Part shown: piece after piece, positions 7,836-43,001 of the stretch
How the letters are laid out: each line of letters begins with the position of its first letter
Position numbering within the stretch: the first letter of the stretch is position 1
Assembly: GCA_963966185.1 (NCBI GenBank)
Contig: CAWZYM010000402.1
Span: 545,001-609,000, forward strand
Direction of reading: 5' to 3'
Source of the DNA: Rhabditoides inermis
Lineage: Eukaryota; Nematoda; Chromadorea; Rhabditida; Rhabditidae
DNA: 64,000 nucleotides
Translations under genes and position numbers: made by a program
The notes under the pieces: generated by a model
Database searches by the model: none
Seen by the model: only the letters and a program-made list of their open reading frames with translations
What the model was told of the DNA's origin: nothing

Positions 7836-8637
7836 AGTAGTATATGTTTGGCCTAGATTACATGACGTCGAAGGTTTCACAACCTATAGGGTGCAAGTTG
7901 CACCCAAAATGTACTTTCGATTACCGTATATTAATTATACGTAATGAACTCATTGTACTGTACGTATTGTCCGGAAATGGTTTGCACTATCAGTTTACGT
8001 GTTTTCTATGAGGTCATGCGCACCTGCAGAGTTCAACTGCACCCACACTTTCTCTCTCTCTCTCTCTCTCCCCACAACATAGACCAGGTGTGTCTAGAGA
8101 GTTGTTGTTGTTCGTTCTCTCTCGTCACACTTTTGTTTAAAGTAAAAGTCAGCACACATCGATGCAAGTTTTTATCGCATGTGTGCAGCAACAGCAGCAG
8201 CAGTCGTGGTGGTGGTGAAGAGGAGGAGGCGACTTCACACACACACACACACAAACATCACTATAAGTACAACATGTACAAACATTAATCTAATGTTAAT
8301 GCTTTGAACATGTTCTACTTACAAAATCAGGGCAGTGTTGATGGGCGTAGAGGAGTTGGCAGCAGCAGCAGCCTACAATCGTTTTGATTAGAACAAATTT
8401 TTTTTTTGCAATTGTAGTAGGGGGCGAGCACTCACGTTTATAGTAGATATCTGAAGAGAAACAGCGAATGTTATGGCGAACGCGGGCGACACATTTCCCC
8501 GCCAGCAACAGTGAGCGAGTGAACTAACGAGTCGACCGCAACGCTTTTATATCACCGACTGAGCACCTTTCGCATAAGCCCCGCCCACAACACTTTCTTT
8601 TAACACAGCAAGTACATTATTTCATCAGTGTATCGTC
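7836..8637. other. Left terminal region: no capsid or replication gene
   Basis: Contains an exact palindrome GGGTGCAAGTTGCACCC (7889-7905), a TC-repeat, a CA-repeat and, on the minus strand, a TATA promoter (8544-8551) aimed at the element end. Candidate donors and acceptors around 8350-8480 suggest a short spliced minus-strand transcript, but no ATG-led frame of note. The true terminal inverted repeat of the ancestral element cannot be told apart from the larger palindrome. Confidence 0.6.
8544..8551 (-). promoter_or_regulatory. TATA box TATAAAAG with upstream GC box
   Basis: On the minus strand GGGCGGGGC is followed by TATAAAAG; start expected near 8515. It would drive an outward transcript toward the element end. 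Confidence 0.6.
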
Positions 8638-8958
8638 ATGTCATCGTCCGGAGAGGAGGGTGAGGATGCTTTTATTTCTTCTCACCTTGATGATGAGCTC
8701 GCGAATAATGTTCCCTCGTTGGCGCAGTTGAAAATATCACAATTCGCTTTCGCTTATGGTCTGAAATACACAGAGACAATGAGCTTCTACAAGCGCTATA
8801 ATGAAATCGCTACACTATACAACAACCTGTCCACTCTGCCGTTTCATAGACGCGAGCGAGTGAAAATCAAGCAAGAAATGGATACGCTGTTTGCGTATTT
8901 GATGAGGCGCTGGAAAGTGTCCGCGGAATCACTATCTCAATTGTTGTTGTATTTTTAG
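8638..8958 (+). CDS. Small acidic/helical Polinton protein, 106 aa (unspliced form)
   Basis: ATG-led frame following a GC-box region, first gene of the left arm. The N terminus is Ser/Glu-rich and acidic; residues 30-106 are predicted mostly helical, with an aromatic stretch near residues 35-50 and a basic patch RRERVKIK around 78-85. No known family is recognised. A donor-like GTGAGG at 8660 and an acceptor TTTTTAG ending at 8958 can remove nearly the whole frame and join the first seven codons to a membrane protein (next entry). The same start codon could thus serve two products. The right arm has an identical arrangement. Confidence 0.55.
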   Translation: MSSSGEEGEDAFISSHLDDELANNVPSLAQLKISQFAFAYGLKYTETMSFYKRYNEIATLYNNLSTLPFHRRERVKIKQEMDTLFAYLMRRWKVSAESLSQLLLYF

Positions 8959-9206
8959 GTGATCCGGACTTTGCAACAACAACAACATCTATATTCCTTT
9001 CGAATGGCCCTATTTCCAGACGAACACGCGACATGTTCACAACTATTCTCGGCATCTTCCTCGCGCTCAGCGTCACCCTCCTCGTCGTCATCGAGTACAA
9101 CTACCACGAGTGCGAGTGCGGAGAGGTCGAACTCATATTCCCGGTCATTCCGACCTCAGCATCTTCATCGCTCCCCATCAGCGACACTACAGTCTTCGAC
9201 TCGTAA
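8638..9206 (+). CDS. Candidate spliced small membrane protein, 89 aa
   Basis: Exon 1 8638-8659, intron 8660-8958, exon 2 8959-9206, in phase (270 nt including stop). Exon 2 has one hydrophobic segment of about 20 residues ending LLVVIEY, then a short Cys pair (CEC) and an acidic/Ser-rich tail. This reading frame of exon 2 differs from the longer frame that overlaps it (9004-9633). A single-span protein with small domains would fit an accessory or virion membrane role, but that is inference. The join rests on a GTGAGG donor and a strong T-run acceptor, without transcript evidence. Confidence 0.45.
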
Positions 9207-9633
9207 TGAGCGCAGAGCTGTGAGGTTTTTCGATGACGATCACCCCATCCATGTTTGCTCAAAAGAGGGGCTCTCAACGAAAAAGGAGGAGGAAGGAGAG
9301 GAGAACCCCACTAGCAGCAGCAGTAGCGTCAACATGCAAGACACCGCATTTGTGAGACAGCCGCGAGCATCTGCAATTGTCGGCTTCAAACCGTGCATGG
9401 TGGTGTTCTTGTGTCAATGGTGTCGCCAGCGCTCACGCGATAGTCTTCCCGATTATCGCGTCACCGAGACGATCTATCGTATTCACATGTGCCCGTCGTG
9501 TGTTAGCACAAATTTGGCGCTTCGCTTCGATGAGCCTCGCCCGTGGGTTCAATCGGTCCTCCGCGGCTCTCGCAAACCGCACACCCAGACGAGAGTGACA
9601 CAGGGCTCGCGAAAGCGCAAGTTGTTTGCATGA
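9004..9633 (+). CDS. Putative zinc-ribbon-like Polinton protein
   Basis: Frame of 209 codons from the first ATG. The first 70 residues are Ser-rich low complexity and overlap the membrane-protein exon in another frame, so the true start may lie further in (Met near 9334). The second half looks like a real domain. It has CQWC and CPSC pairs about 30 residues apart (two CxxC knuckles, possible zinc binding) with aromatic and basic residues between, then a basic tail ending RKRKLF that could be a nuclear signal. AATAAA follows at about 9737. Family unknown. Confidence 0.5.
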   Translation: MALFPDEHATCSQLFSASSSRSASPSSSSSSTTTTSASAERSNSYSRSFRPQHLHRSPSATLQSSTRNERRAVRFFDDDHPIHVCSKEGLSTKKEEEGEENPTSSSSSVNMQDTAFVRQPRASAIVGFKPCMVVFLCQWCRQRSRDSLPDYRVTETIYRIHMCPSCVSTNLALRFDEPRPWVQSVLRGSRKPHTQTRVTQGSRKRKLFA

Positions 9634-9705
9634 GATTGATGATGATGATGATTAGATGTATGTGTGTGTTCGTAAAATGTTGTCATTGTAAATGTTGTGT
9701 CATTG

Positions 9706-10041
9706 ATGAGTGGTGGTGGCGATCGCTCGTTTCACAGAATAAAGTTGCACCTTGGCTTGTTTGAGCGCATTCTGCGTAGACCACGGCTAGACTACAGCAA
9801 ACTCTCGAATGCACAGTTCGGTATAATCATCGAACTCTTTCACAACTTTCTCCGAAATAAGATTGCTGTGACGGCACGTGAAAAAGAGACGCTGCTCAAG
9901 GGGATTGGAGTGGTGCGAAAAGTGGCGGGAGTGCGAACGCGCTCACGAGCACAAACGCTCTTTACCACATCTGCGCGTAATCGAAATCTTTTGAAGATTA
10001 TTGTTCGTGCAGTTTTGGCGCGCAATTGCAACCGAAAGTGA
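9706..10041 (+). CDS. Small basic helical protein, 111 aa
   Basis: ATG chosen at 9706; the frame is open a few codons further upstream without ATG. It is very basic (many Arg/Lys), helical, with spaced aliphatic residues: SNAQFGIIIELFHNFL, then Lys/Glu, then RTRSRAQ. Its composition resembles small basic proteins often found near capsid genes of Polintons and adintoviruses, possibly a core or DNA-condensing protein; this is a pattern impression only. It sits between the zinc-ribbon gene and the lysine-rich gene on the same strand. Confidence 0.55.
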   Translation: MSGGGDRSFHRIKLHLGLFERILRRPRLDYSKLSNAQFGIIIELFHNFLRNKIAVTAREKETLLKGIGVVRKVAGVRTRSRAQTLFTTSARNRNLLKIIVRAVLARNCNRK

Positions 10042-10065
10042 ATTTTGGCGCTTAAGAGCGCACAA

Positions 10066-11373
10066 ATGTGGGATTGGATTATGCGCTTTGCAAACAAATT
10101 TCGCATAATCTCACAAAAACTCGACACGCACCCGATTTTGGGGGACGATAATGCGGCTATTCTGCAAGACGCTCGAGAGCGTACTCAGGCTGTGCTGGAC
10201 AGTGATGTTGATGTGCACTCAAAGTCGGGATTATACGGACATCATCTCACACACTTTGACACGCTGAAGAAACACATTGAGGGGTGCGCCCCTACAAATG
10301 CCAGCGTAGCTAACAGCAGGATTGTGGACAAACGGAGAGCATTATCACGGCGAATGCCTGTTGCTGTCGCCCCCGTTTCCACACCACTATCTCCTCTACC
10401 ACCACGATCGCGAAAACAAGTGGGGCGACATGGGCGGCAGCTCAATAAACGCAAAGTCACAGCTACCGACACTCACGACACTTCGGCGGATGTGCGTGAG
10501 GCTGCACTCGCTCCCACCACAATCACTGATCAACTCAAAAAGAGTAAAATGGATGCGGCGGCGGGTGCTGACGACTCTCGTAAAAAAGAAGGAGATATCC
10601 CTTCACAACAACCGGAAACAAGCGGTATTGTGAAATCTACGAGAAACCGTGTGGTTTTTCGAAAACACGGACTCTCGCTGAAAGACGATCCGAGTTTTGT
10701 TGAGCGCAAAGTGATAACGCTGTTAGCTAATCTCGAGTCTAAGAACGCGTTCGTAAATAAGAGGGATCGGCGATGGAGAGATGCTATGCGAAGACGAATT
10801 GTGCAGGTTGAGAAAATGCGCGCTGAGAGCGACGAAAATCTCCTACACGGTCCAAAACGCCTCAAACTCTCCAAGGATGTGTCTTCGAAGAAATGGTGGT
10901 ATAATACACTGTTACGATTACGTAAAAAACAACGACGTCTTGCCAACAAAAGAAAGGCGGATACGAGCGCTGACGTCGAAGAGCGAGCCGGAGCAGACGG
11001 AAAGCGTAGACGAATCACCTCCTCCTCCTTCTCTACCACAAAAAACAACACAGCTGCTCCAGCCGCACGTGATGCTGATGCTGATGATGATGCGGGAGAG
11101 AAAGTTGAAAAAAAGGTATCGATAAAGAAAGAGACTGTCGTAAAAAAAGATAACGATGTGAAAAAACGCAAACGAAAAACATCTATAAAAAGCGAGGTGG
11201 GAGATGAGCCCGATGTTAAGATGTCGGTTCACAAAAGAGATACACCCGTTTCACGCCAGCATAAAAAGGCAGGTGTTGCTGTGGCGGCTGTGAAGAAAGA
11301 GGTGTTGAGTGATCAAGAAGGCAGCGGATTAGCGTCACCGAAACAAGCGAGACTTCGTGTTTGTTCGTGGTAG
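10066..11373 (+). CDS. Large lysine/arginine-rich protein, 435 aa, unknown function
   Basis: First ATG of the frame is at 10066. The N-terminal 80 residues are a compact mixed domain (starting WDWIMRFANKF) with a conserved-looking HLTHFDTLKKHIEG motif. After that the chain is highly charged, with repeated KKRKRK-type clusters, Asp/Ala runs and Ser/Thr linkers, and no hydrophobic core. It is probably nuclear and nucleic-acid binding, such as a virion core or histone-like protein; inferred from charge only. AATAAA at 11424-11431 can end its transcript just before integrase. Both arm copies are intact. Confidence 0.6.
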   Translation: MWDWIMRFANKFRIISQKLDTHPILGDDNAAILQDARERTQAVLDSDVDVHSKSGLYGHHLTHFDTLKKHIEGCAPTNASVANSRIVDKRRALSRRMPVAVAPVSTPLSPLPPRSRKQVGRHGRQLNKRKVTATDTHDTSADVREAALAPTTITDQLKKSKMDAAAGADDSRKKEGDIPSQQPETSGIVKSTRNRVVFRKHGLSLKDDPSFVERKVITLLANLESKNAFVNKRDRRWRDAMRRRIVQVEKMRAESDENLLHGPKRLKLSKDVSSKKWWYNTLLRLRKKQRRLANKRKADTSADVEERAGADGKRRRITSSSFSTTKNNTAAPAARDADADDDAGEKVEKKVSIKKETVVKKDNDVKKRKRKTSIKSEVGDEPDVKMSVHKRDTPVSRQHKKAGVAVAAVKKEVLSDQEGSGLASPKQARLRVCSW

Positions 11374-11472
11374 TGATGATGCTGATAATGCTGTTATCGA
11401 TTGTTTTGCGTTTGAGTACGTAATAATAAAAGAGTGAATTCCAACCGAAAGTGTGTCATTTGTTGTTTTGCA

Positions 11473-12652
11473 ATGGTGAGTGATGGTGACGATGCGCGTA
11501 ATAAATTGCTTGCGTCGCTCTATACGGATTTGGACAAAGCTTCTGCGTTCACATCTGCTCAAAGGCTTTTGGAGGATGCGCGAAAAGTGGACTCGAAAAT
11601 CACCCGAGAGCACATCCGAGACTTCCTACTCGCATCGAACACCTACACCCTCCACAAGCCTGCAAGGGTCAACTATCCGCGCAATCGGACCAGGAGTACT
11701 GGTATTTTGGAACATGTTCAGAGCGATTTGTGCGAAATGCAATTGTTGCATGAGAGCAATTTGGGGTATCGATATATTCTGACAGCCATCGATGTGTATT
11801 CGCGTTTCGCCTGGGCTGCTCCCCTGAAGAACAAGGGCGGTGAGGAGGTGCGAGACGCCCTAGCAAAAATGTTTGATAGACGAAAAATGTTGATATTGGT
11901 TACCGATGCGGGTAAAGAGTTTCTCAACCGACATGTGCAAAAATGGCTCACCGACAACGATATCATTCACTCGGTGCCGAACAGCAAAATGAAAGCGGCC
12001 ATGTGTGAGAGGTGAGAGTACAGTCAGATGTTTCGTATGTTTGATTAGATTATGATGATAATGATGATGTTCTCTTATGTTTAGGCTGAACCGCACCTTG
12101 AAAAGTCGTCTCTACAAATATTTTACGCATGCCGGCACGGAGCGATGGCTGGAGGCGCTGCCGAAAATTGTGAACGCTATCAATCACTCTGTTAACCGCT
12201 CAATCGGAATGCGCCCCGTGGATGTGAAAAATGGGAGTATTGAAGAGAGGGAGAAGGCGGCAGAGGCAGCCGGCCGTCCCCCTCGAAGAAAGCCACTGCA
12301 GAAGCCAAAATACAAAGTCGGACAAAACGTGCGCATTTCAAAGAATCGCTCCGTGTTCAGCAAACAATATCTGCCCACCGAGGAGATTTTCACTATCGAT
12401 TCGATACAGTTACGCGATCCTCCAATCTATAAGCTTCGTGACTATACCGGTGAGCTCGTAGAGGGCAGTTTTTACGAGCCCGAAATCACACCGACCACCT
12501 CGCAAGTGTATCGCATCGAAAAGGTTATCAGAAAGCGAACCAAGCAGGGAAAGAAAGAGTGTCTGGTCAAGTGGCTCGGCTTTGACGACACCCACAACTC
12601 TTGGGTGCCGTGTGAGGAGATTGAAAATCTGCAAGACAACCAAACAAAGTGA
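11473..12652 (+). CDS. Polinton integrase (DDE, chromodomain), one intron
   Basis: Exons 11473-12011 and 12085-12652; the 73-bp intron (GTGAGA...TTTAG) joins MCE-R with LNRT in frame. The start is the first ATG, after an AT-rich promoter. The retroviral-type catalytic core shows D in HVQSDLCEM, D in LVTDAGKEF and, across the splice junction, E in MCERLNRTLK. A 15-aa Pro/Lys linker leads to a C-terminal chromodomain-like segment (Y-x-EKVI ... LVKWLG...SWVP), which in related integrases may steer integration through chromatin. It would cut and join the element ends and give the 6-bp duplication seen here. Intact. Confidence 0.93.
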
Positions 12653-12681
12653 TGGTGAACGAGACAAAAAAAATCGATTGT

Positions 12682-13296
12682 TTATTCTTCCTTTGGCACA
12701 TATGCAATGTGATGTTCGTCGAAAACACGACCCAAATATTTCAAATGTTCGGGCGTCGTCTGACACCCGTCAATGACAAAGTGTCCGAATGGATCGCTGG
12801 TCGCATCGCGATACGCCTCAATTACAAACTGTGGGTTGGTGGGGTGAAGTTGTTGAGCGAGAACGCGAATCTGCGTTAGATCCATGGGATTCTTTGTGAG
12901 TACAATGTAGTTTGCGTTCGTTCTCGATGTTCGATCGTGCCCACCGAATATGTTCTGGCACACGTATATCACACTCACATTTTTGTGATGAATTGCTCGT
13001 GTATAAATGTTATTGAGAGCCTCTTTTCGTTTTTTGTAGTACTCTGCCTGGTCTTCAATGACTATCAACGTTTTCTTTTCCGGATTCACGTAGCTCAAAT
13101 CGACGGGACCATCAATCATCTTAACAAATGAGTGTGAGGGCGGGTGTGCGGTGGAGCATCCCTGAAACCAGAGCACCTCGTTGACGCCCGGAAACATGTG
13201 CGCGAGATTGTCGAGAACACGTCGCAAAAACGTGCTTTTTCCGCTCATGGTTGGACCGGAAATGTAGGTGCCGCTCGGCCAACTCCATACCAACAT
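12682..13296 (-). CDS. Polinton packaging ATPase (FtsK/HerA-type)
   Basis: Walker A GPTMSGKST near residues 12-20 and Walker B TLIVIED near 75-81, with a sensor region VIYVCQN. This is the A32/FtsK-like ATPase of Polintons and related viruses that pumps DNA into capsids. The frame is open further upstream, but a TATA box at 13347-13354 places the transcript start near 13320, so the ATG at 13296 is chosen. The stop codon TAA is part of AATAAA (12681-12686). Only this gene and the outward transcript run against the other genes. Length (204 aa) is usual for the family. Confidence 0.9.
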   Translation of the reverse strand: MLVWSWPSGTYISGPTMSGKSTFLRRVLDNLAHMFPGVNEVLWFQGCSTAHPPSHSFVKMIDGPVDLSYVNPEKKTLIVIEDQAEYYKKRKEALNNIYTRAIHHKNVSVIYVCQNIFGGHDRTSRTNANYIVLTKNPMDLTQIRVLAQQLHPTNPQFVIEAYRDATSDPFGHFVIDGCQTTPEHLKYLGRVFDEHHIAYVPKEE

Positions 13297-13346
13297 TCTC
13301 GCGTGAGTGTTGAGGCAAAAGTGTGTACACGATGCGTGGATGTGGT

Positions 13347-13354
13347 CTTTTATA
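13347..13354 (-). promoter_or_regulatory. TATA box of the ATPase gene
   Basis: TATAAAAG on the minus strand, about 50 bp upstream of the chosen ATG. Confidence 0.65.
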
Positions 13355-13378
13355 CCCACATCCACACGCGCCAACACG

Positions 13379-13476
13379 ACACGGTGGTATAGTGGATAGT
13401 GATGTGGCATGTTGGGCGATCACACGGCATGACTGATGATGATGCGAGATCGATACCCGCTACAGCCGAAGATTTT
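13379..13476 (+). ncRNA. Candidate Pol III transcript (A box, B box, T-run)
   Basis: TGGTATAGTGG at 13385-13395 matches the A-box consensus TRGYNNARNNG at every defined base. GATCGATAC at 13448-13456 matches the B box GWTCRANNC. TTTT at 13473-13476 ends the unit. The T arm can partly form, but no 7-bp acceptor stem pairs, so it is not a working tRNA. It could be a small Pol III RNA, a tRNA-like remnant or a captured SINE head. It sits between two divergent genes, and the copy in the right arm is preserved. Confidence 0.4.
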
Positions 13477-13652
13477 GCTGGTTTCGCGCATTGCCCTTTC
13501 AAAAAAAAATCCTGATTTGATGTGCACGTGTGCATGAGGAAATCCATTTCAACATCATTACGGTAAAAAAGACGCACATCTATTCGATTATCGATGTGCT
13601 GCGTGTCATTTCTCATACTCTCCCTCTTATCCGACTCTCCCCTCTTTCCCTC

Positions 13653-14075
13653 ATGTCCGACGTCATTGTTGTGCCTGCATTCCTCTGCGGGTACAAATGT
13701 CTCAGCGGGGAGCAGTGCGTGAGCGACAAGTCTGTGGACGGCAAGGAGTGGTGTCGACCGAGCGCGACTGCTGCTCTCCAAAAGCTCGAGGGTGAGTACA
13801 CGTTTTCTCTGTTTTATTGTGCTTTGTGCTTTGTGGTTCGTGATTTGATTTTGTACTGTAACCCGGGCGTATTTGCAGATCCGGAGCTCACCGTGTTCGG
13901 CGGCTACGCGCTGCTGTGCACCCTCTTCGTCGTGTTTGGCGGCGTTCTGCTCCTCCTCGGCGCCGTCTTCCGCCAGTGGAAGCAGAGCCGCTCGCGTCGT
14001 CGTCTTGCCGCTCTGCACGACCGTCCCCTCCCTCCCAGCCCCGCCCCCTCCACATACGCTCTCATTAGTGTCTAA
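13653..14075 (+). CDS. Small Cys-rich membrane protein, one intron
   Basis: Exons 13653-13791 and 13879-14075, joining LE to DPEL in phase (111 aa). The first exon has four to five Cys (FLCGYKC, QCV, EWC) like a small disulfide-bonded ectodomain. The second has one strong membrane segment of about 25 residues (ALLCTLFVVFGGVLLLLG), then a basic stretch and a Pro-rich tail. The 87-bp intron is a multiple of three and has no stop codon, so an unspliced message gives a protein with 29 extra, mostly hydrophobic residues. AATAAA follows the stop at once. Function unknown; a virion or membrane protein is likely. Confidence 0.65.
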   Translation: MSDVIVVPAFLCGYKCLSGEQCVSDKSVDGKEWCRPSATAALQKLEGEYTFSLFYCALCFVVRDLILYCNPGVFADPELTVFGGYALLCTLFVVFGGVLLLLGAVFRQWKQSRSRRRLAALHDRPLPPSPAPSTYALISV

Positions 14076-14139
14076 AATAAATATGGTTGTACACATTGGT
14101 GGTCGTGGTGGTGTTGCCGAGCGGTCGTTTCGATCTTGC

Positions 14140-14179
<40 letters not shown>

Positions 14180-14201
14180 TTTGGGAGTTGTAGAGTGAGT
14201 G

Positions 14202-14807
14202 ATGATGGAGGACAACTTCTACGTGACGCTTCCATCGTCGGTGGTGGCCACAGATGGAGTGAACACAATCAGCAACTACACCACCCGTCTTCCTGAACCG
14301 CTGATCCTCAACCGAGACACGGCGCGTTGTGGTCTGGCCGAGCTCATCTACACTATGAGTTTCGATTCGATTGCAAACGAGAGTTTCTTTGAGATCGAGT
14401 ACGTGGACGGCGAACGCGTGCGCGTCGCCTTTCCGAAAGGCAACTATGCGAGCGCATCGGAAATCATCGACACACTGAATGGCGTCTACGAGCGCGCAAC
14501 AAAGAAGAACAGAAAAACAAATAAGCGAAAAGCCGACAGCAGTCCGGACGCCACACACTTTCGGGTGAAGCGAGATGGGGTAGTGGATGAAATGAACGAA
14601 CTCGACGATCTCTACGAAACCTCTCTACAAATCGAAAAAGAGCAAAGAGCGCTCGCCACGCAGAGTGACGCTCTTTTGGCGACGGCGGTCACCGCTCTTA
14701 TCGACAAACTTATCGAACCGAGCGGTGACACGAACGAAAAGGAGACTGTTGTTGCACCACAACCAAAACCGAAACCAAAAACAACAACAACAACAACAAC
14801 AACAGCA

Positions 14808-14845
<38 letters not shown>

Positions 14846-16323
14846 ATTGCCTTCGGTGACGAGCACATCACTGCCCCCTCCAGCAACAACGAGGACGAGC
14901 ACACCGAAGCCTCCAGCGACGACGACGACCACATCCAAACCGCCAGCGACGACGACGTCGACCACACCAAAGCCGCCAGTGACGACGACGACGAGCACAC
15001 CGAAGCCGCTAGCGACGACGACGAGCACACCGAAGCCGCTAGCGACGACGACGAGCACACCGAAGCCGCCAGCGACGACGACGACGAGCACACCAAAGCC
15101 GCCAGCGACGACGACGAGCACACAAAAGCCGCCAGCGACGACGACGACGAGCACACCAAAGCCGCCAGCGACGACGACGAGCACACCGAAGCCGCCAGCG
15201 ACGACGACGAGCACACCGAACCCGCCAGCGACGACGACGACGACGACGACCACACCAAAACCTACTCCGATTGTACACAGCGCAAATCAGAAATCGGCGA
15301 GCGTGGATGATAGTACAAGTAGGACAAGCGGTGCAGTCGCAACAACAACAACAGCAGCAGCAGCAGCAATAGAGATTGAGAGCAAAAAGAGAGCAGATAG
15401 AGAGAGGGAGAGAAAACTCTCGGCATACGCCGATGCACTGCTTGCTGTCGGTGCAACAGCGGCGCTCGACGAGCTGCTCGCGTTGCTCGAGGAGCACGAG
15501 AAAAAGAAACGGCAAAACGCTCAAAAAGCGGCTGCTTCTGCAGCAGAGGCTGTGCTCAAAGCTGCAGAGCTGAAGAAAAATGAGAGGCTCGTTGCTCACC
15601 ACCGCCCTCACCATCACAACCGCCACTCTCAACAAGACGGCTGATGCGGCGGCGAAAAAGAAGAAGATTGATGCCGCGACAGCACGTCTCGCTGATGCCC
15701 TGGTCGCGACCGGAGCGGTAGTCGCAGCGATCGCAGCGCTGAATCAGAGCAAAGAGAAGAAGGTGACAGCGAGCAAAGAGAGTGTTCCCACCGTCCAACG
15801 CACTCTTGTCGACATTTCCGATGAGTCCGATGCGACCGAGGAGCTCCCCGTTGCAGCTGGCACTATTGTGCGCGCGAGAGGACCACCATATCACAGACTA
15901 TTCTCCTACGATATCACACAAAAGAGAGTGTTGGTGAGCGGCTTGCGAAAACATGGAATCGTCTCGATTACGCTCGCCGAGGAGCTCGCCTATTTGATAG
16001 GATTTCGTCATCCCATAATAAACAGTGAGGCAGCTGCCGAGTATCCAATCGATTTACGTAACAACACTAGCGGTCTCTACGTGTATTGTAGTATCTTGCA
16101 ATACTCTGTACTCGGAAATGTGAAGAGCAATTTGCTGAGAGTGGTGCCGGTGAGTGGTGAGTACGGACAGGTCGTTTCGCTCTCGTTCAATCCCATCCGC
16201 TACATTCCGATTTTGTTCGACACGATCGAGAGCATTCAAATCACCGTGTGTGACGAGCGTGGACAGGAGATACCCTTCAACTTTGGCACCATCATTGCCA
16301 CCCTACACTTTACCACAAACTGA
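14202..16323 (+). pseudogene. Minor capsid (penton) gene, left copy, frameshifted
   Basis: Same gene as the intact 34508-36640, but 8 bp (CGGACGCG) are missing near 15589, so the reading frame shifts and stops at 15644. The C-terminal jelly-roll half stays open in another frame to 16323. One Thr codon of the repeat is also missing. The 5' flank has a (GT)n tract of slightly different length from the right arm. Confidence 0.9.
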
Positions 16324-16501
16324 CGTCAGTATTTGTTTGCTGTATATACACATGTAAATTTATTCAAACTCCAATACGATAGCCTCTATTGTATCGCGTG
16401 TAGTGGGTGTGAGTGGTGGTGCAAGAGAGAGAGAGAGAGAGAATTTTCTTCAACACGCATTGTTTGAAGCAGAAAGAGAAAGAGAGAGATAGAGAGCGAA
16501 A

Positions 16502-16951: not shown

Positions 16952-17080
16952 CTGTCTGTGGTAGTGTTGCTACTACTACTATTCATACCTCATCACCCCA
17001 CCAACACTACTACTACTACTCATAATACCTCAGATTCCCCGAAAAAAACATGTACATTACAACTACAAGTCTAAACTAAC

Positions 17081-18595: not shown

Positions 18596-18673
18596 GCGCA
18601 CCCTCAACTTACATTGAGGCTTGTGCGCATCGCGTGCGCTCTCCTCTCACAATCACTCGCTCACTCACTCGTC

Positions 18674-19362: not shown

Positions 19363-19450
19363 TGGTCTATGGTGGGACCTAAGGTCTCAGGACTGGCATC
19401 TGAGTATCAGCTACCGCCGTACTGAACCCCCGACTGAGTGGTGAGGGTGG

Positions 19451-31382: not shown

Positions 31383-31383
31383 G

Positions 31384-32161: not shown

Positions 32162-32239
32162 GACGAGTGAGTGAGCGAGTGATTGTGAGAGGAGAGCGCA
32201 CGCGATGCGCACAAGCCTCAATGTAAGTTGAGGGTGCGC

Positions 32240-33754: not shown

Positions 33755-33883
33755 GTTAGTTTAGACTTGTAGTTGTAATGTACATGTTTTTTTCGGGGAA
33801 TCTGAGGTATTATGAGTAGTAGTAGTAGTGTTGGTGGGGTGATGAGGTATGAATAGTAGTAGTAGCAACACTACCACAGACAG

Positions 33884-34333: not shown

Positions 34334-34507
34334 TTTCGCTCTCTATCTCTCTCTTTCTCTTTCTGCTTCAAACAATGCGTGTTGAAGAAAATTCTCTCTC
34401 TCTCTCTTGCACCACCACTCACACCCACTACACGCGATACAATAGAGGCTATCGTATTGGAGTTTGAATAAATTTACATGTGTATATACAGCAAACAAAT
34501 ACTGACG

Positions 34508-35993
34508 TCAGTTTGTGGTAAAGTGTAGGGTGGCAATGATGGTGCCAAAGTTGAAAGGTATCTCCTGTCCACGCTCGTCACACACGGTGATTTGAATGCT
34601 CTCGATCGTGTCGAACAAAATCGGAATGTAGCGGATGGGATTGAACGAGAGCGAAACGACCTGTCCGTACTCACCACTCACCGGCACCACTCTCAGCAAA
34701 TTGCTCTTCACATTTCCGAGTACAGAGTATTGCAAGATACTACAATACACGTAGAGACCGCTAGTGTTGTTACGTAAATCGATTGGATACTCGGCAGCTG
34801 CCTCACTGTTTATTATGGGATGACGAAATCCTATCAAATAGGCGAGCTCCTCGGCGAGCGTAATCGAGACGATTCCATGTTTTCGCAAGCCGCTCACCAA
34901 CACTCTCTTTTGTGTGATATCGTAGGAGAATAGTCTGTGATATGGTGGTCCTCTCGCGCGCACAATAGTGCCAGCTGCAACGGGGAGCTCCTCGGTCGCA
35001 TCGGACTCATCGGAAATGTCGACAAGAGTGCGTTGGACGGTGGGAACACTCTCTTTGCTCGCTGTCACCTTCTTCTCTTTGCTCTGATTCAGCGCTGCGA
35101 TCGCTGCGACTACCGCTCCGGTCGCGACCAGGGAATCAGCGAGACGTGCTGTCGCGGCATCAATCTTCTTCTTTTTCGCCGCCGCATCAGCCGTCTTGTT
35201 GAGAGTGGCGGTTGTGATGGTGAGGGCGGTGGTGAGCAACGCGTCCGCGAGCCTCTCATTTTTCTTCAGCTCTGCAGCTTTGAGCACAGCCTCTGCTGCA
35301 GAAGCAGCCGCTTTTTGAGCGTTTTGCCGTTTCTTTTTCTCGTGCTCCTCGAGCAACGCGAGCAGCTCGTCGAGCGCCGCTGTTGCACCGACAGCAAGCA
35401 GTGCATCGGCGTATGCCGAGAGTTTTCTCTCCCTCTCTCTATCTGCTCTCTTTTTGCTCTCAATCTCTATTGCTGCTGCTGCTGCTGTTGTTGTTGTTGC
35501 GACTGCACCGCTTGTCCTACTTGTACTATCATCCACGCTCGCCGATTTCTGATTTGCGCTGTGTACAATCGGAGTAGGTTTTGGTGTGGTCGTCGTCGTC
35601 GTCGTCGTCGCTGGCGGGTTCGGTGTGCTCGTCGTCGTCGCTGGCGGCTTCGGTGTGCTCGTCGTCGTCGCTGGCGGCTTTGGTGTGCTCGTCGTCGTCG
35701 TCGCTGGCGGCTTTTGTGTGCTCGTCGTCGTCGCTGGCGGCTTTGGTGTGCTCGTCGTCGTCGTCGCTGGCGGCTTCGGTGTGCTCGTCGTCGTCGCTAG
35801 CGGCTTCGGTGTGCTCGTCGTCGTCGCTAGCGGCTTCGGTGTGCTCGTCGTCGTCGTCACTGGCGGCTTTGGTGTGGTCGACGTCGTCGTCGCTGGCGGT
35901 TTGGATGTGGTCGTCGTCGTCGCTGGAGGCTTCGGTGTGCTCGTCCTCGTTGTTGCTGGAGGGGGCAGTGATGTGCTCGTCACCGAAGGCAAT

Positions 35994-36034
<41 letters not shown>

Positions 36035-36640
36035 TGCTGTTGTTGTTGTTGTTGTTGTTGTTTTTGGTTTCGGTTTTGGTTGTGGTGCAACAACAGTCTC
36101 CTTTTCGTTCGTGTCACCGCTCGGTTCGATAAGTTTGTCGATAAGAGCGGTGACCGCCGTCGCCAAAAGAGCGTCACTCTGCGTGGCGAGCGCTCTTTGC
36201 TCTTTTTCGATTTGTAGAGAGGTTTCGTAGAGATCGTCGAGTTCGTTCATTTCATCCACTACCCCATCTCGCTTCACCCGAAAGTGTGTGGCGTCCGGAC
36301 TGCTGTCGGCTTTTCGCTTATTTGTTTTTCTGTTCTTCTTTGTTGCGCGCTCGTAGACGCCATTCAGTGTGTCGATGATTTCCGATGCGCTCGCATAGTT
36401 GCCTTTCGGAAAGGCGACGCGCACGCGTTCGCCGTCCACGTACTCGATCTCAAAGAAACTCTCGTTTGCAATCGAATCGAAACTCATAGTGTAGATGAGC
36501 TCGGCCAGACCACAACGCGCCGTGTCTCGGTTGAGGATCAGCGGTTCAGGAAGACGGGTGGTGTAGTTGCTGATTGTGTTCACTCCATCTGTGGCCACCA
36601 CCGACGATGGAAGCGTCACGTAGAAGTTGTCCTCCATCAT
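34508..36640 (-). CDS. Polinton minor capsid (penton) protein with mucin-like insert, 710 aa
   Basis: Starts at the first of two ATGs after a (CA/GT)n tract. Residues 1-115 begin MEDNFYVTLPSSV and hold the N-terminal part of a single jelly roll (LILNRDTARCGLAELIY). Residues about 185-365 are Thr/Pro-rich repeats (TPKPPATTT type) after poly-Thr. Residues about 375-570 are Ala/Lys/Glu-rich, probably helical. The C-terminal 130 residues complete the fold with IDLRNNTSGLYVYC, LLRVVPV and FGTIIATLHF, typical of Polinton penton proteins. Penton proteins sit at capsid vertices; the Thr-rich part could be a glycosylated or extended spike. This copy is intact. Confidence 0.85.
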
Positions 36641-36662
36641 CACTCACTCTACAACTCCCAAA

Positions 36663-36696
<34 letters not shown>

Positions 36697-36762
36697 ATGC
36701 AAGATCGAAACGACCGCTCGGCAACACCACCACGACCACCAATGTGTACAACCATATTTATT

Positions 36763-37185
36763 TTAGACACTAATGAGAGCGTATGTGGAGGGGGCGGGGC
36801 TGGGAGGGAGGGGACGGTCGTGCAGAGCGGCAAGACGACGACGCGAGCGGCTCTGCTTCCACTGGCGGAAGACGGCGCCGAGGAGGAGCAGAACGCCGCC
36901 AAACACGACGAAGAGGGTGCACAGCAGCGCGTAGCCGCCGAACACGGTGAGCTCCGGATCTGCAAATACGCCCGGGTTACAGTACAAAATCAAATCACGA
37001 ACCACAAAGCACAAAGCACAATAAAACAGAGAAAACGTGTACTCACCCTCGAGCTTTTGGAGAGCAGCAGTCGCGCTCGGTCGACACCACTCCTTGCCGT
37101 CCACAGACTTGTCGCTCACGCACTGCTCCCCGCTGAGACATTTGTACCCGCAGAGGAATGCAGGCACAACAATGACGTCGGACAT
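36763..37185 (-). CDS. Small Cys-rich membrane protein, right copy
   Basis: Exons 37185-37047 and 36959-36763 with the same 87-bp, stop-free intron (37046-36960) as in the left arm. Conservation of the open intron in both arms is expected from their recent duplication and is not independent support. Confidence 0.65.
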   Translation of the reverse strand: MSDVIVVPAFLCGYKCLSGEQCVSDKSVDGKEWCRPSATAALQKLEGEYTFSLFYCALCFVVRDLILYCNPGVFADPELTVFGGYALLCTLFVVFGGVLLLLGAVFRQWKQSRSRRRLAALHDRPLPPSPAPSTYALISV

Positions 37186-37361
37186 GAGGGAGAGAGGGGA
37201 GAGTCGGATAAGAGGGAGAGTATGAGAAATGACACGCAGCACATCGATAATCGAATAGATGTGCGTCTTTTTTACCGTAATGATGTTGAAATGGATTTCC
37301 TCATGCACACGTGCACATCAAATCAGGATTTTTTTTTGAAAGGGCAATGCGCGAAACCAGC

Positions 37362-37459
37362 AAAATCTTCGGCTGTAGCGGGTATCGATCTCGCATCATC
37401 ATCAGTCATGCCGTGTGATCGCCCAACATGCCACATCACTATCCACTATACCACCGTGT
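37362..37459 (-). ncRNA. Candidate Pol III transcript, right copy
   Basis: Mirror of 13379-13476. A box 37443-37453, B box 37382-37390, T-run 37362-37365, all unchanged. Confidence 0.4.
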
Positions 37460-37483
37460 CGTGTTGGCGCGTGTGGATGTGGG

Positions 37484-37491
37484 TATAAAAG
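37484..37491 (+). promoter_or_regulatory. TATA box of the ATPase gene, right copy
   Basis: TATAAAAG, about 50 bp before the ATPase ATG. Confidence 0.65.
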
Positions 37492-37541
37492 ACCACATCC
37501 ACGCATCGTGTACACACTTTTGCCTCAACACTCACGCGAGA

Positions 37542-38156
37542 ATGTTGGTATGGAGTTGGCCGAGCGGCACCTACATTTCCGGTCCAACCATGAGCGGAAA
37601 AAGCACGTTTTTGCGACGTGTTCTCGACAATCTCGCGCACATGTTTCCGGGCGTCAACGAGGTGCTCTGGTTTCAGGGATGCTCCACCGCACACCCGCCC
37701 TCACACTCATTTGTTAAGATGATTGATGGTCCCGTCGATTTGAGCTACGTGAATCCGGAAAAGAAAACGTTGATAGTCATTGAAGACCAGGCAGAGTACT
37801 ACAAAAAACGAAAAGAGGCTCTCAATAACATTTATACACGAGCAATTCATCACAAAAATGTGAGTGTGATATACGTGTGCCAGAACATATTCGGTGGGCA
37901 CGATCGAACATCGAGAACGAACGCAAACTACATTGTACTCACAAAGAATCCCATGGATCTAACGCAGATTCGCGTTCTCGCTCAACAACTTCACCCCACC
38001 AACCCACAGTTTGTAATTGAGGCGTATCGCGATGCGACCAGCGATCCATTCGGACACTTTGTCATTGACGGGTGTCAGACGACGCCCGAACATTTGAAAT
38101 ATTTGGGTCGTGTTTTCGACGAACATCACATTGCATATGTGCCAAAGGAAGAATAA
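37542..38156 (+). CDS. Polinton packaging ATPase, right copy
   Basis: Intact twin of 12682-13296, 204 residues. Walker A GPTMSGKST and Walker B TLIVIED are unchanged, and the stop overlaps AATAAA (38153-38158). As in the other arm it is transcribed against the capsid genes, from its own TATA box. Confidence 0.9.
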   Translation: MLVWSWPSGTYISGPTMSGKSTFLRRVLDNLAHMFPGVNEVLWFQGCSTAHPPSHSFVKMIDGPVDLSYVNPEKKTLIVIEDQAEYYKKRKEALNNIYTRAIHHKNVSVIYVCQNIFGGHDRTSRTNANYIVLTKNPMDLTQIRVLAQQLHPTNPQFVIEAYRDATSDPFGHFVIDGCQTTPEHLKYLGRVFDEHHIAYVPKEE

Positions 38157-38185
38157 ACAATCGATTTTTTTTGTCTCGTTCACCA

Positions 38186-39365
38186 TCACTTTGTTTGGTT
38201 GTCTTGCAGATTTTCAATCTCCTCACACGGCACCCAAGAGTTGTGGGTGTCGTCAAAGCCGAGCCACTTGACCAGACACTCTTTCTTTCCCTGCTTGGTT
38301 CGCTTTCTGATAACCTTTTCGATGCGATACACTTGCGAGGTGGTCGGTGTGATTTCGGGCTCGTAAAAACTGCCCTCTACGAGCTCACCGGTATAGTCAC
38401 GAAGCTTATAGATTGGAGGATCGCGTAACTGTATCGAATCGATAGTGAAAATCTCCTCGGTGGGCAGATATTGTTTGCTGAACACGGAGCGATTCTTTGA
38501 AATGCGCACGTTTTGTCCGACTTTGTATTTTGGCTTCTGCAGTGGCTTTCTTCGAGGGGGACGGCCGGCTGCCTCTGCCGCCTTCTCCCTCTCTTCAATA
38601 CTCCCATTTTTCACATCCACGGGGCGCATTCCGATTGAGCGGTTAACAGAGTGATTGATAGCGTTCACAATTTTCGGCAGCGCCTCCAGCCATCGCTCCG
38701 TGCCGGCATGCGTAAAATATTTGTAGAGACGACTTTTCAAGGTGCGGTTCAGCCTAAACATAAGAGAACATCATCATTATCATCATAATCTAATCAAACA
38801 TACGAAACATCTGACTGTACTCTCACCTCTCACACATGGCCGCTTTCATTTTGCTGTTCGGCACCGAGTGAATGATATCGTTGTCGGTGAGCCATTTTTG
38901 CACATGTCGGTTGAGAAACTCTTTACCCGCATCGGTAACCAATATCAACATTTTTCGTCTATCAAACATTTTTGCTAGGGCGTCTCGCACCTCCTCACCG
39001 CCCTTGTTCTTCAGGGGAGCAGCCCAGGCGAAACGCGAATACACATCGATGGCTGTCAGAATATATCGATACCCCAAATTGCTCTCATGCAACAATTGCA
39101 TTTCGCACAAATCGCTCTGAACATGTTCCAAAATACCAGTACTCCTGGTCCGATTGCGCGGATAGTTGACCCTTGCAGGCTTGTGGAGGGTGTAGGTGTT
39201 CGATGCGAGTAGGAAGTCTCGGATGTGCTCTCGGGTGATTTTCGAGTCCACTTTTCGCGCATCCTCCAAAAGCCTTTGAGCAGATGTGAACGCAGAAGCT
39301 TTGTCCAAATCCGTATAGAGCGACGCAAGCAATTTATTACGCGCATCGTCACCATCACTCACCAT
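38186..39365 (-). CDS. Polinton integrase (DDE, chromodomain), right copy
   Basis: Exons 39365-38827 and 38753-38186, 73-bp intron 38826-38754. No residue difference from the left copy was noticed: the D-D-E residues, Pro/Lys linker and chromodomain-like end are all present. It converges with the ATPase gene, the two stops being about 30 bp apart. With two copies the element keeps a working integrase even though no polymerase is left. Confidence 0.93.
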
Positions 39366-39464
39366 TGCAAAACAACAAATGACACACTTTCGGTTGGAAT
39401 TCACTCTTTTATTATTACGTACTCAAACGCAAAACAATCGATAACAGCATTATCAGCATCATCA

Positions 39465-40772
39465 CTACCACGAACAAACACGAAGTCTCGCTTGTTTCGG
39501 TGACGCTAATCCGCTGCCTTCTTGATCACTCAACACCTCTTTCTTCACAGCCGCCACAGCAACACCTGCCTTTTTATGCTGGCGTGAAACGGGTGTATCT
39601 CTTTTGTGAACCGACATCTTAACATCGGGCTCATCTCCCACCTCGCTTTTTATAGATGTTTTTCGTTTGCGTTTTTTCACATCGTTATCTTTTTTTACGA
39701 CAGTCTCTTTCTTTATCGATACCTTTTTTTCAACTTTCTCTCCCGCATCATCATCAGCATCAGCATCACGTGCGGCTGGAGCAGCTGTGTTGTTTTTTGT
39801 GGTAGAGAAGGAGGAGGAGGTGATTCGTCTACGCTTTCCGTCTGCTCCGGCTCGCTCTTCGACGTCAGCGCTCGTATCCGCCTTTCTTTTGTTGGCAAGA
39901 CGTCGTTGTTTTTTACGTAATCGTAACAGTGTATTATACCACCATTTCTTCGAAGACACATCCTTGGAGAGTTTGAGGCGTTTTGGACCGTGTAGGAGAT
40001 TTTCGTCGCTCTCAGCGCGCATTTTCTCAACCTGCACAATTCGTCTTCGCATAGCATCTCTCCATCGCCGATCCCTCTTATTTACGAACGCGTTCTTAGA
40101 CTCGAGATTAGCTAACAGCGTTATCACTTTGCGCTCAACAAAACTCGGATCGTCTTTCAGCGAGAGTCCGTGTTTTCGAAAAACCACACGGTTTCTCGTA
40201 GATTTCACAATACCGCTTGTTTCCGGTTGTTGTGAAGGGATATCTCCTTCTTTTTTACGAGAGTCGTCAGCACCCGCCGCCGCATCCATTTTACTCTTTT
40301 TGAGTTGATCAGTGATTGTGGTGGGAGCGAGTGCAGCCTCACGCACATCCGCCGAAGTGTCGTGAGTGTCGGTAGCTGTGACTTTGCGTTTATTGAGCTG
40401 CCGCCCATGTCGCCCCACTTGTTTTCGCGATCGTGGTGGTAGAGGAGATAGTGGTGTGGAAACGGGGGCGACAGCAACAGGCATTCGCCGTGATAATGCT
40501 CTCCGTTTGTCCACAATCCTGCTGTTAGCTACGCTGGCATTTGTAGGGGCGCACCCCTCAATGTGTTTCTTCAGCGTGTCAAAGTGTGTGAGATGATGTC
40601 CGTATAATCCCGACTTTGAGTGCACATCAACATCACTGTCCAGCACAGCCTGAGTACGCTCTCGAGCGTCTTGCAGAATAGCCGCATTATCGTCCCCCAA
40701 AATCGGGTGCGTGTCGAGTTTTTGTGAGATTATGCGAAATTTGTTTGCAAAGCGCATAATCCAATCCCACAT
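39465..40772 (-). CDS. Large lysine/arginine-rich protein, right copy
   Basis: Intact twin of 10066-11373, 435 residues, no change noticed after the ATG. Its transcript would end at the AATAAA about 50 bp beyond the stop, just before the integrase start. Confidence 0.6.
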   Translation of the reverse strand: MWDWIMRFANKFRIISQKLDTHPILGDDNAAILQDARERTQAVLDSDVDVHSKSGLYGHHLTHFDTLKKHIEGCAPTNASVANSRIVDKRRALSRRMPVAVAPVSTPLSPLPPRSRKQVGRHGRQLNKRKVTATDTHDTSADVREAALAPTTITDQLKKSKMDAAAGADDSRKKEGDIPSQQPETSGIVKSTRNRVVFRKHGLSLKDDPSFVERKVITLLANLESKNAFVNKRDRRWRDAMRRRIVQVEKMRAESDENLLHGPKRLKLSKDVSSKKWWYNTLLRLRKKQRRLANKRKADTSADVEERAGADGKRRRITSSSFSTTKNNTAAPAARDADADDDAGEKVEKKVSIKKETVVKKDNDVKKRKRKTSIKSEVGDEPDVKMSVHKRDTPVSRQHKKAGVAVAAVKKEVLSDQEGSGLASPKQARLRVCSW

Positions 40773-40796
40773 GTGTGCGCTCTTAAGCGCCAAAAT

Positions 40797-41132
40797 TCAC
40801 TTTCGGTTGCAATTGCGCGCCAAAACTGCACGAACAATAATCTTCAAAAGATTTCGATTACGCGCAGATGTGGTAAAGAGCGTTTGTGCTCGTGAGCGCG
40901 TTCGCACTCCCGCCACTTTTCGCACCACTCCAATCCCCTTGAGCAGCGTCTCTTTTTCACGTGCCGTCACAGCAATCTTATTTCGGAGAAAGTTGTGAAA
41001 GAGTTCGATGATTATACCGAACTGTGCATTCGAGAGTTTGCTGTAGTCTAGCCGTGGTCTACGCAGAATGCGCTCAAACAAGCCAAGGTGCAACTTTATT
41101 CTGTGAAACGAGCGATCGCCACCACCACTCAT
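40797..41132 (-). CDS. Small basic helical protein, right copy
   Basis: Twin of 9706-10041, 111 residues, unchanged by eye. The gap to the next gene (lysine-rich protein) is only about 25 bp, which suggests a shared promoter region or a bicistronic message. Confidence 0.55.
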   Translation of the reverse strand: MSGGGDRSFHRIKLHLGLFERILRRPRLDYSKLSNAQFGIIIELFHNFLRNKIAVTAREKETLLKGIGVVRKVAGVRTRSRAQTLFTTSARNRNLLKIIVRAVLARNCNRK

Positions 41133-41204
41133 CAATGACACAACATTTACAATGACAACATTTTACGAACACACACATACATCTAATCATCATCATCATC
41201 AATC

Positions 41205-41834
41205 TCATGCAAACAACTTGCGCTTTCGCGAGCCCTGTGTCACTCTCGTCTGGGTGTGCGGTTTGCGAGAGCCGCGGAGGACCGATTGAACCCACGGGCG
41301 AGGCTCATCGAAGCGAAGCGCCAAATTTGTGCTAACACACGACGGGCACATGTGAATACGATAGATCGTCTCGGTGACGCGATAATCGGGAAGACTATCG
41401 CGTGAGCGCTGGCGACACCATTGACACAAGAACACCACCATGCACGGTTTGAAGCCGACAATTGCAGATGCTCGCGGCTGTCTCACAAATGCGGTGTCTT
41501 GCATGTTGACGCTACTGCTGCTGCTAGTGGGGTTCTCCTCTCCTTCCTCCTCCTTTTTCGTTGAGAGCCCCTCTTTTGAGCAAACATGGATGGGGTGATC
41601 GTCATCGAAAAACCTCACAGCTCTGCGCTCATTACGAGTCGAAGACTGTAGTGTCGCTGATGGGGAGCGATGAAGATGCTGAGGTCGGAATGACCGGGAA
41701 TATGAGTTCGACCTCTCCGCACTCGCACTCGTGGTAGTTGTACTCGATGACGACGAGGAGGGTGACGCTGAGCGCGAGGAAGATGCCGAGAATAGTTGTG
41801 AACATGTCGCGTGTTCGTCTGGAAATAGGGCCAT
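41205..41834 (-). CDS. Putative zinc-ribbon-like protein, right copy
   Basis: Twin of 9004-9633; CQWC and CPSC pairs and the basic tail are kept. The Ser-rich first third again overlaps the membrane-protein exon in another frame, so the real start may be further inside. Confidence 0.5.
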   Translation of the reverse strand: MALFPDEHATCSQLFSASSSRSASPSSSSSSTTTTSASAERSNSYSRSFRPQHLHRSPSATLQSSTRNERRAVRFFDDDHPIHVCSKEGLSTKKEEEGEENPTSSSSSVNMQDTAFVRQPRASAIVGFKPCMVVFLCQWCRQRSRDSLPDYRVTETIYRIHMCPSCVSTNLALRFDEPRPWVQSVLRGSRKPHTQTRVTQGSRKRKLFA

Positions 41835-42200
41835 TCGAAAGGAATATAGATGTTGTTGTTGTTGCAAAGTCCGGATCACCTAAAAATACAACAACAATTG
41901 AGATAGTGATTCCGCGGACACTTTCCAGCGCCTCATCAAATACGCAAACAGCGTATCCATTTCTTGCTTGATTTTCACTCGCTCGCGTCTATGAAACGGC
42001 AGAGTGGACAGGTTGTTGTATAGTGTAGCGATTTCATTATAGCGCTTGTAGAAGCTCATTGTCTCTGTGTATTTCAGACCATAAGCGAAAGCGAATTGTG
42101 ATATTTTCAACTGCGCCAACGAGGGAACATTATTCGCGAGCTCATCATCAAGGTGAGAAGAAATAAAAGCATCCTCACCCTCCTCTCCGGACGATGACAT
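41632..42200 (-). CDS. Candidate spliced small membrane protein, right copy
   Basis: Exons 42200-42179 and 41879-41632, in phase, 89 residues. Donor and acceptor are the same as in the left arm. Confidence 0.45.
41880..42200 (-). CDS. Small acidic/helical protein, right copy (unspliced form)
   Basis: Twin of 8638-8958, 106 residues, same alternative-splice geometry. It is the outermost ATG-led gene of the arm. Confidence 0.55.
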   Translation of the reverse strand: MSSSGEEGEDAFISSHLDDELANNVPSLAQLKISQFAFAYGLKYTETMSFYKRYNEIATLYNNLSTLPFHRRERVKIKQEMDTLFAYLMRRWKVSAESLSQLLLYF

Positions 42201-43001
42201 GACGATACACTGATAAAATAATGTACTTGCTGTGTTAAAAGAAAGTGTTGTGGGCGGGGCTTATGCGAAAGGTGCTCAGTCGGTGATATAAAAGCGTTGC
42301 GGTCGACTCGTTAGTTCACTCGCTCACTGTTGCTGGCGGGGAAATGTGTCGCCCGCGTTCGCCATAACATTCGCTGTTTCTCTTCAGATATCTACTATAA
42401 ACGTGAGTGCTCGCCCCCTACTACAATTGCAAAAAAAAAATTTGTTCTAATCAAAACGATTGTAGGCTGCTGCTGCTGCCAACTCCTCTACGCCCATCAA
42501 CACTGCCCTGATTTTGTAAGTAGAACATGTTCAAAGCATTAACATTAGATTAATGTTTGTACATGTTGTACTTATAGTGATGTTTGTGTGTGTGTGTGTG
42601 AAGTCGCCTCCTCCTCTTCACCACCACCACGACTGCTGCTGCTGTTGCTGCACACATGCGATAAAAACTTGCATCGATGTGTGCTGACTTTTACTTTAAA
42701 CAAAAGTGTGACGAGAGAGAACGAACAACAACAACTCTCTAGACACACCTGGTCTATGTTGTGGGGAGAGAGAGAGAGAGAGAGAAAGTGTGGGTGCAGT
42801 GTGAACTCTGCAGGTGCGCATGACCTCATAGAAAACACGTAAACTGATAGTGCAAACCATTTCCGGACAATACGTACAGTACAATGAGTTCATTACGTAT
42901 AATTAATATACGGTAATCGAAAGTACATTTTGGGTGCAACTTGCACCCTATAGGTTGTGAAACCTTCGACGTCATGTAATCTAGGCCAAACATATACTAC
43001 T
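42201..43001. other. Right terminal region
   Basis: Mirror of 7836-8637: TATA promoter at 42287-42294 facing the end, possible small exons up to about 42520 (acceptors TCTTCAG and TTGTAG, donors GTGAGT and GTAAGT), microsatellites, and the palindrome GGGTGCAACTTGCACCC at 42932-42948. No clear protein. Confidence 0.6.
42287..42294 (+). promoter_or_regulatory. TATA box TATAAAAG, outward transcript
   Basis: Preceded by GGGCGGGGC at 42251-42259; start expected near 42320. Confidence 0.6.

Follow-up and report, generated by a model that had tools for sequence, protein, structure and literature searches.

Snap-back defective genomes are yielded by adenovirus, and the linear killer plasmids of Kluyveromyces yield hairpin and inverted-dimer derivatives. 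The replication of Polintons (Mavericks) has, to our knowledge, been inferred and never directly observed. Initiation at the ends by a protein-primed DNA polymerase (PolB), with displacement of a strand, is established for this family according to excerpts of two sources (PMC11071308, PMC3511435), the first of which relates the Kluyveromyces plasmids to Polintons. Mavericks of vertebrates have 6-bp target duplications, (AGT)2//(ACT)2 ends and a mean size of ∼17 kb (PMC8097293, in part). Snap-back genomes of adeno-associated virus (AAV) are replicated with trans-acting help; with one type of engineered AAV dimer, rep expression fell, which its authors tentatively attribute to double-stranded RNA (PMC8235507, in part). 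We describe here a stretch of 64,000 nucleotides from the nematode Rhabditoides inermis (assembly GCA_963966185.1, contig CAWZYM010000402.1, here C402, positions 545,001 to 609,000), termed the window, in which positions 7836..43001 hold an element, A, made of two halves that are inverted copies of each other. The best explanation, to which we assign a probability of roughly 0.7, is that A is a palindromic Polinton derivative of fold-back origin that entered as a unit and draws on the polymerase of other Polintons. Taken singly, entry into the genome as one mirror-image unit is most likely, origin from a replicating Polinton strand that folded back on itself is likely, and copying with polymerase supplied by other Polintons is probable.

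The Kluyveromyces killer plasmids resemble this case as protein-primed PolB replicons that give palindromic deletion derivatives, but have no integrase or capsid genes and are not chromosomal. Like the Polintons/Mavericks described elsewhere (PMC8097293, PMC6431247), A has a 6-bp duplication, (AGT)2//(ACT)2 ends, a DDE integrase, a double-jelly-roll capsid gene and protease-like and ATPase-like genes; unlike those elements, it has no PolB that could be found and its inverted repeats fill nearly the whole element. A further difference is that the sister copies of A decayed yet moved. As in AAV snap-back genomes (PMC8235507, in part), a half-genome is doubled and self-complementary, one end is present twice and the replicase half is missing; replication with functions in trans, a feature of AAV in that excerpt, would be shared by the palindromes described here. 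Unlike AAV snap-back genomes, these palindromes are genomic insertions and multi-copy transposons. Teratorn is likewise a giant virus-transposon with long inverted repeats but is a piggyBac-herpesvirus fusion whose repeats enclose a unique region (excerpt of PMC6431247), while Mu killer of maize is an inverted duplication from a transposon but is a silencing locus of a plant transposon (excerpt of PMC3440606). No palindromic Polinton was present among the literature matches listed, a weak negative, as most subscription journals lay outside the search.

The arms of A are 11.5 kb each, and a comparison of 7835-19080 with 31755-43002 detected 9 substitutions and 6 gap openings (22 gapped bases), an identity of 99.7%, as expected from an earlier sequence-only reading in which the same half-element formed both ends in inverted order. 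A chance origin of the inverted repeat was rejected; ∼11 kb at 99.7% needs no chance model. The same reading had called the element a giant palindrome, which describes the mirrored arms but not the present locus, as this is lopsided through a long terminal repeat (LTR) retrotransposon of 12,011 bp in the left arm. This insertion has LTRs at 19081-19677 and 30495-31091 that are identical at 597 of 597 positions, is likely to be recent and came later than A, splitting the left arm, which resumes downstream (mirror of the resumed part, 31456-31758). Removal of the retrotransposon leaves ∼23.15 kb. A structure with long terminal inverted repeats and a unique middle was also considered and was rejected, because the 12-kb middle is the retrotransposon with a target duplication of its own, GCAT.

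The arms were said to meet as TTTCA (31378-31382) and TGAAA (31456-31460) around 73 bp. These motifs and the spacer were found as described, but base-by-base comparison indicated that the arms diverge slightly further out, within a T-tract (T10CGTTTCA versus T9CTTTTCA), which is the pattern that would be expected of fold-back at a run of T. Read as coding sequence, the spacer corresponds to the terminal exon of a thymidine kinase (TK) gene; it shares 16 of 21 residues with a TK exon on contig C231, and its splice acceptor falls, by eye, at the codon where the TK genes of C231 and C45 have theirs. This exon may stem from a TK gene of the parent or may be host DNA picked up at the strand switch.

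The ends of A, AGTAGTATATG and CATATACTACT, are inverted and carry the (AGT)2//(ACT)2 motif (AGTAGT...ACTACT), and the 6-bp sequence GTCCTC flanks the element on both sides (Table 1); Polinton-specific ends and a target duplication are intact, as had been claimed. The insertion lies in a LINE, with a reverse transcriptase (E 5.4e-23) encoded in its right flank. A 331-base query made of both flanks fused at the duplication was searched against the assembly and gave 18 matches. Eight of these spanned at least 324 of the 331 bases with 94-98% identity and were uninterrupted LINE copies, and two shorter matches (C285, C396) likewise crossed the junction. The others were the window's own halves beside A (n = 2), which overlap by 7 query bases comprising the 6-bp duplication and one chance base, or lay right of the junction only (n = 6). 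As uninterrupted LINE copies cross the junction, the present flanks of A were one piece of DNA before insertion. The duplication, the empty sites and the presence of the retrotransposon in one arm only strongly support integration of A as a palindromic unit and, hence, the earlier proposal that a double-armed product had integrated. Inverted arms would equally be produced by two Polintons inserted head to head with subsequent recombination, but a single target duplication surrounds the pair, the empty site lacks nothing else and, as described below, five sister copies have one and the same centre, making such an origin barely credible.

A search for PolB (PF03175) gave no match on C402, as the earlier reading had held, while the same search detected 11 matches on eight other contigs of the genome (C407, C375, C210, C153, C165 and three more). 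A is a PolB-less palindromic derivative of a Polinton and not an autonomous Polinton, an assignment made because PolB, a defining part of the autonomous element, was searched for and not found. C407 and C375 bear the nearest relatives by major capsid protein (MCP) that also carry PolB. Contig C210, one of those bearing PolB, carries two sets of capsid and ATPase genes that point the same way, ∼9 kb apart (35404-49602), a tandem and not a mirrored arrangement.

Sister copies were detected with the outer 806 bp of A as the query, mirrored on C70 and C130 and partial on C178, C179, C180 and C590. The 18-bp terminus had nine exact hits, two each on C402, C70 and C130 and one each on C178, C179 and C180, all of which are ends of palindromic copies; allowing two mismatches added four hits, equal to the control count (4). 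These copies, termed family B, have the termini of A and a different centre, in which CAACAAACTACAGACATA is followed by a spacer and then by its own mirror image; this applies to all five contigs with a B centre (C70, C130, C178, C179 and C590). The spacer is the same 21 bp, in either orientation, on C70, C179 and C590, is tandemly duplicated on C130 and is present as a duplicate with two substitutions on C178. While C178 shares the doubled spacer of C130, its outer parts are closer to C179, indicating that centre and outer parts have different histories. Target duplications were GGCGAC for C70, AGCGCG for C130 and CACCGA for a copy read on C179 at one side and C180 at the other; C178 has a separate left flank only and C590 no flank. 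The sequence-only reading had proposed that other palindromes with the same centre would show that the palindrome itself transposes. Family B provides these, with one centre on five contigs, but A's own centre was found only once in the assembly, with no second site.

A palindrome could alternatively have been made inside the chromosome, if one half of an ordinary integrated Polinton was lost and replaced by a mirror image of the other through break-induced copying via the inverted ends, with the original target duplication retained. As identical inverted ends let copying rejoin the far flank, the duplication and empty site of A are compatible with this route, as is the single occurrence of its centre. 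Family B has one centre at several sites, three of them with matched duplications of their own, and the same event with the same breakpoints would be needed each time; hence, we consider a chromosomal origin unlikely.

The B arms that were read follow the gene order of A (early open reading frames [ORFs], ORF 9676, ORF 10042, integrase, ATPase and the start of the capsid gene), with a remnant of ORF 10042 and a broken-frame integrase seen on C70 only. On all five contigs the MCP matches stop near residue 142 with an in-frame stop, and the ATPases carry stops (5/5). This common decay suggests movement after decay and, hence, with help in trans. On these sequence comparisons, B probably moved as a palindrome after its genes had decayed, the palindrome itself replicating and jumping as a unit. 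A search for a parent with the inner 664 bp of B gave 14 matches, 10 on the five B contigs and four on C41, C205 and C107 that were short or at 68-69%. In C70, early ORFs 8578 and 8959 are tandemly doubled in each arm (e.g., C70:266717-271476), one set being 93-98% like A and the other ∼78-82%.

Differences were counted within and between copies. In an outer B piece (2,959 columns common to eight arms), no arm differences were detected within C70, C130 or C179, while copies differed at 9 to 20 positions, except for C179 and C590, which were identical and may be one copy. In a centre-side piece (2,397 columns), arms differed 0 to 1 times and copies 0 to 13 times, C130 differing from the rest at 12 to 13 positions. 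In a terminal piece (1,130 columns), the arms of C70 and of C130 had no differences within the copy; C130 had 46 differences from C178 and C179, C178 had none from C179, and C70 had 319 to 325 from all others because its end is A-like. Over whole B pieces, arm pairs compared by BLAST had 0 to 1 substitutions and 1 to 7 gap openings per 1.3 to 3.6 kb, and the terminal pair of C70 had two substitutions by MAFFT; 37 mismatches between the C130 arms were non-homologous piece ends and were excluded. The outer 1,800 bp of C70 are A-like (96.3-96.5% overall and 99.3% in the last 735 bp) and are followed by B sequence, with the switch at the same base in both arms, indicating that one exchange reached both. 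Copying of one arm into both at each replication could explain this double-armed exchange simply, although gene conversion is also possible.

Gene conversion keeps arms alike in large chromosomal palindromes, and movement of the palindromes as units, with their arms kept identical by chromosomal conversion, predicts the within-copy identity equally well. Changes confined to one arm have persisted, however, namely, in A, the LTR element together with 9 substitutions and, in the left arm of C70, a deletion of ∼3.5 kb. The substitutions in A are not significantly clustered (Kolmogorov-Smirnov P = 0.14, a weak test with 9 points), and the foreign terminus of C70 stops at the same base in both arms. 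We regard maintenance by conversion as the most serious of the competing accounts, while doubting that it is correct.

Mirrored copies were also observed in a third lineage, C, on C276, C388 and C144, whereas C412, C221 and C179:54-61k hold one-sided relatives of these. In C276 and C388 the arms stop at a common point near capsid residue 480, while those of C144 reach into the protease, and the spacers measure ∼1.7 kb (C276), 84 bp and 306 bp, differences which indicate that the centres were reworked or formed more than once. Over 441 columns, the arms differed at 0, 1 and 0 positions within copies, as compared with 10 to 22 between copies; over 1,000 bp further out, the C276 arms were 100% identical (rounded), and C388 and C144 were 84% alike to C276. 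A short inverted pair of lineage C outer sequence, ∼0.85 kb across (C409:851310-852157), is possibly a miniature derivative. In its capsid sequence, lineage C stands far from A and B. Given this distance, the one-sided relatives and the three different centres, at least two origins of the palindromes are well supported by sequence, and a third, separating A from B, is likely.

An ATPase search placed 28 of 48 matches in palindromic copies (9 contig places, C70 by one arm only) and 20 in 19 one-sided places, such that 19 of 28 contig places are not mirrored, indicating that mirroring is not a general fault of the assembly. Palindromes are a typical product of missed adapters or chimeric amplification, and the contigs C178, C179, C180 and C590 end inside the element. 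An artefact of assembly or amplification is, nevertheless, very improbable in view of the different flanks on each side, the exact 6-bp duplications, the empty sites, the one-armed insertion, the centre shared by five contigs and the unmirrored ATPase places.

The fold-back reading proposes the following. In the course of protein-primed strand displacement, the strand being extended would change template at a short stretch of matching sequence, the T-tract in the case of A, and continue on its own displaced or nascent strand. The resulting hairpin would carry one terminus, and copying through its loop would give a linear palindrome with the same terminus at both ends. The polymerase half would be lost in the fold-back; a palindrome without PolB must obtain it from elsewhere, and the enzyme would then come in trans. 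Replication in trans through a folded strand is favoured only indirectly, by the common centre and the agreement of the arms, and packaging of the product, which the earlier reading had put forward as another possibility, would be conjectural. Either strand could fold into a hairpin, and in each cycle one arm would template both; the arms would thereby stay identical, and a recombined terminus, as in C70, would spread to both. Integration would follow through the action of integrase on the two identical ends, leaving a 6-bp duplication. We infer a hairpin-like intermediate that rewrites both arms each round, for which gene conversion between arms is a live rival.

Several observations weigh against this reading. 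The earlier claim of fold-back at T-rich microhomology is fitted by the T-tract beside the TK-like exon, but the full Polinton that it called for, with A's arm joined to PolB and TK, was not found in the same genome. On C407, protease and PolB face each other with a different ORF and no TK match between them, so that C407 does not represent the exact parent of A. The terminus search found no PolB element with the A/B termini and, as no non-palindromic element with these termini was detected, the actual helper has escaped detection, been lost or come from outside the genome. Some copies resemble each other as closely as arms do in the centre-side B piece, C179 and C590 having 0 differences and C70 differing from each of them by 2. 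In lineage C, the 1.7-kb spacer of C276, arm differences at 11 of 3,882 positions in the same copy and a rearranged centre in C144 indicate that not every copy is a clean snap-back. Structure was read throughout from assembly contigs, including the four B contigs that break inside the element.

Each arm was said to carry integrase, ATPase, penton, major capsid and protease. Integrase and MCP were identified, whereas protease and ATPase had only weak profile matches and the putative penton ORF had none in a profile search (Table 1). The gene set is also not intact in both arms: the putative minor capsid/penton gene, a single 711-codon ORF in the right arm (34508-36643, minus strand), is frame-broken in the left arm, and the protease, a 181-codon ORF in the right arm (31676-32221, minus strand), is cut there. 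A predicted GT-AG intron (12012-12084) separates the integrase core from the chromodomain. The ATPase had a best Pfam E value of 0.0017, below cut-offs, and a phrog ATPase E value of 0.008, and has homologues in 27 other contig places of the genome; protease homologues adjoin MCP in other elements. The predicted MCP fold has a low mean confidence (pLDDT 57.7); it matches double-jelly-roll capsid proteins as a broad class, without distinguishing between Polinton, virophage and adenovirus types. A protein database contained six weak MCP relatives (23-33% identity over the alignment), and IMG/VR gave no exogenous relatives with one peptide pattern from the MCP alignment.

Table 1. Coordinates of element A, its genes and its flanking duplications in the window
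Feature	Position	Strand	Basis or remark
Target duplication GTCCTC, left copy	7830..7835	.	End reading and joined-flank search
Left arm, outer part (terminus AGTAGTATATG inward)	7836..19080	+	99.7% identity to right arm
Integrase, predicted exon 1, rve core	11434..12011	+	Pfam rve, E 1.9e-13
Integrase, predicted exon 2, C-terminal part with chromodomain	12085..12649	+	Pfam Chromo, E 2.8e-9
Putative packaging ATPase (P-loop)	12685..13419	-	Weak P-loop matches
Conserved ORF, putative minor capsid/penton	14199..16323	+	Split over two frames in left arm
MCP, double jelly roll	17081..18595	+	Predicted fold; 506 codons, open in both arms
Adenovirus-type protease, putative	18614..19080	+	Peptidase_C5, Pfam E 0.017 (below cut-off); cut by retrotransposon
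LTR retrotransposon in left arm	19081..31091	-	RVT_1, RNase H, rve
Left arm, inner end (end of protease, T-tract)	31092..31382	+	Arm alignment
Central spacer, TK-like last exon with splice acceptor	31383..31455	+	TK exon on C231
Right arm, complete	31456..43001	-	Arm alignment
Target duplication GTCCTC, right copy	43002..43007	.	End reading and joined-flank search

Some further features were observed in and around A. In the putative minor capsid ORF, an in-frame tandem repeat (14877-15243) encodes a Thr/Pro-rich mucin-like stretch (TTTSTPKPPA), and a 3-bp length difference between the arms at 14808 lies just outside it. The retrotransposon contains a 1,202-codon pol ORF and a second ORF of 1,024 codons with DUF1759-like and aspartyl-protease-like matches below cut-off. 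Window positions 8475-8640 have four 157-bp matches on C397, C398 and C321 (85% identity, on contigs not otherwise hit by that query), perhaps a small repeat that A took up or gave rise to. A satellite with a period of ∼362 bp forms two blocks (window 1-6205 and 47073-64000) on either side of the LINE and A. The SL1 leader occurred 368 times and its reversed control 0 times, by which a nematode host is likely.

These results support the view that the sequence-only reading was largely right and too modest, in that the palindrome is a recurrent mobile form rather than a single accident. A wider proposal, which we advance tentatively and with the odds somewhat against it, is that snap-back Polintons form a standing class of parasites in this genome, which would replicate as hairpins with one arm templating both in every cycle, need only their ends, arise recurrently from Polintons, exchange ends with them as in C70, outlive their genes and, through the double-stranded RNA that they would give rise to, be able to dampen the Polintons on which they depend. 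Defective snap-back genomes are known from infections, while those described here appear as inherited, multi-copy mobile elements. Because of the arm-reset pattern, the proposed intermediate can be tested in other nematode genomes with sequence data only. If the fold-back reading is true, the palindromes would be a fossil record of Polinton replication and a test of strand fold-back during that replication, and would exemplify parasitism on a virus-like transposon.

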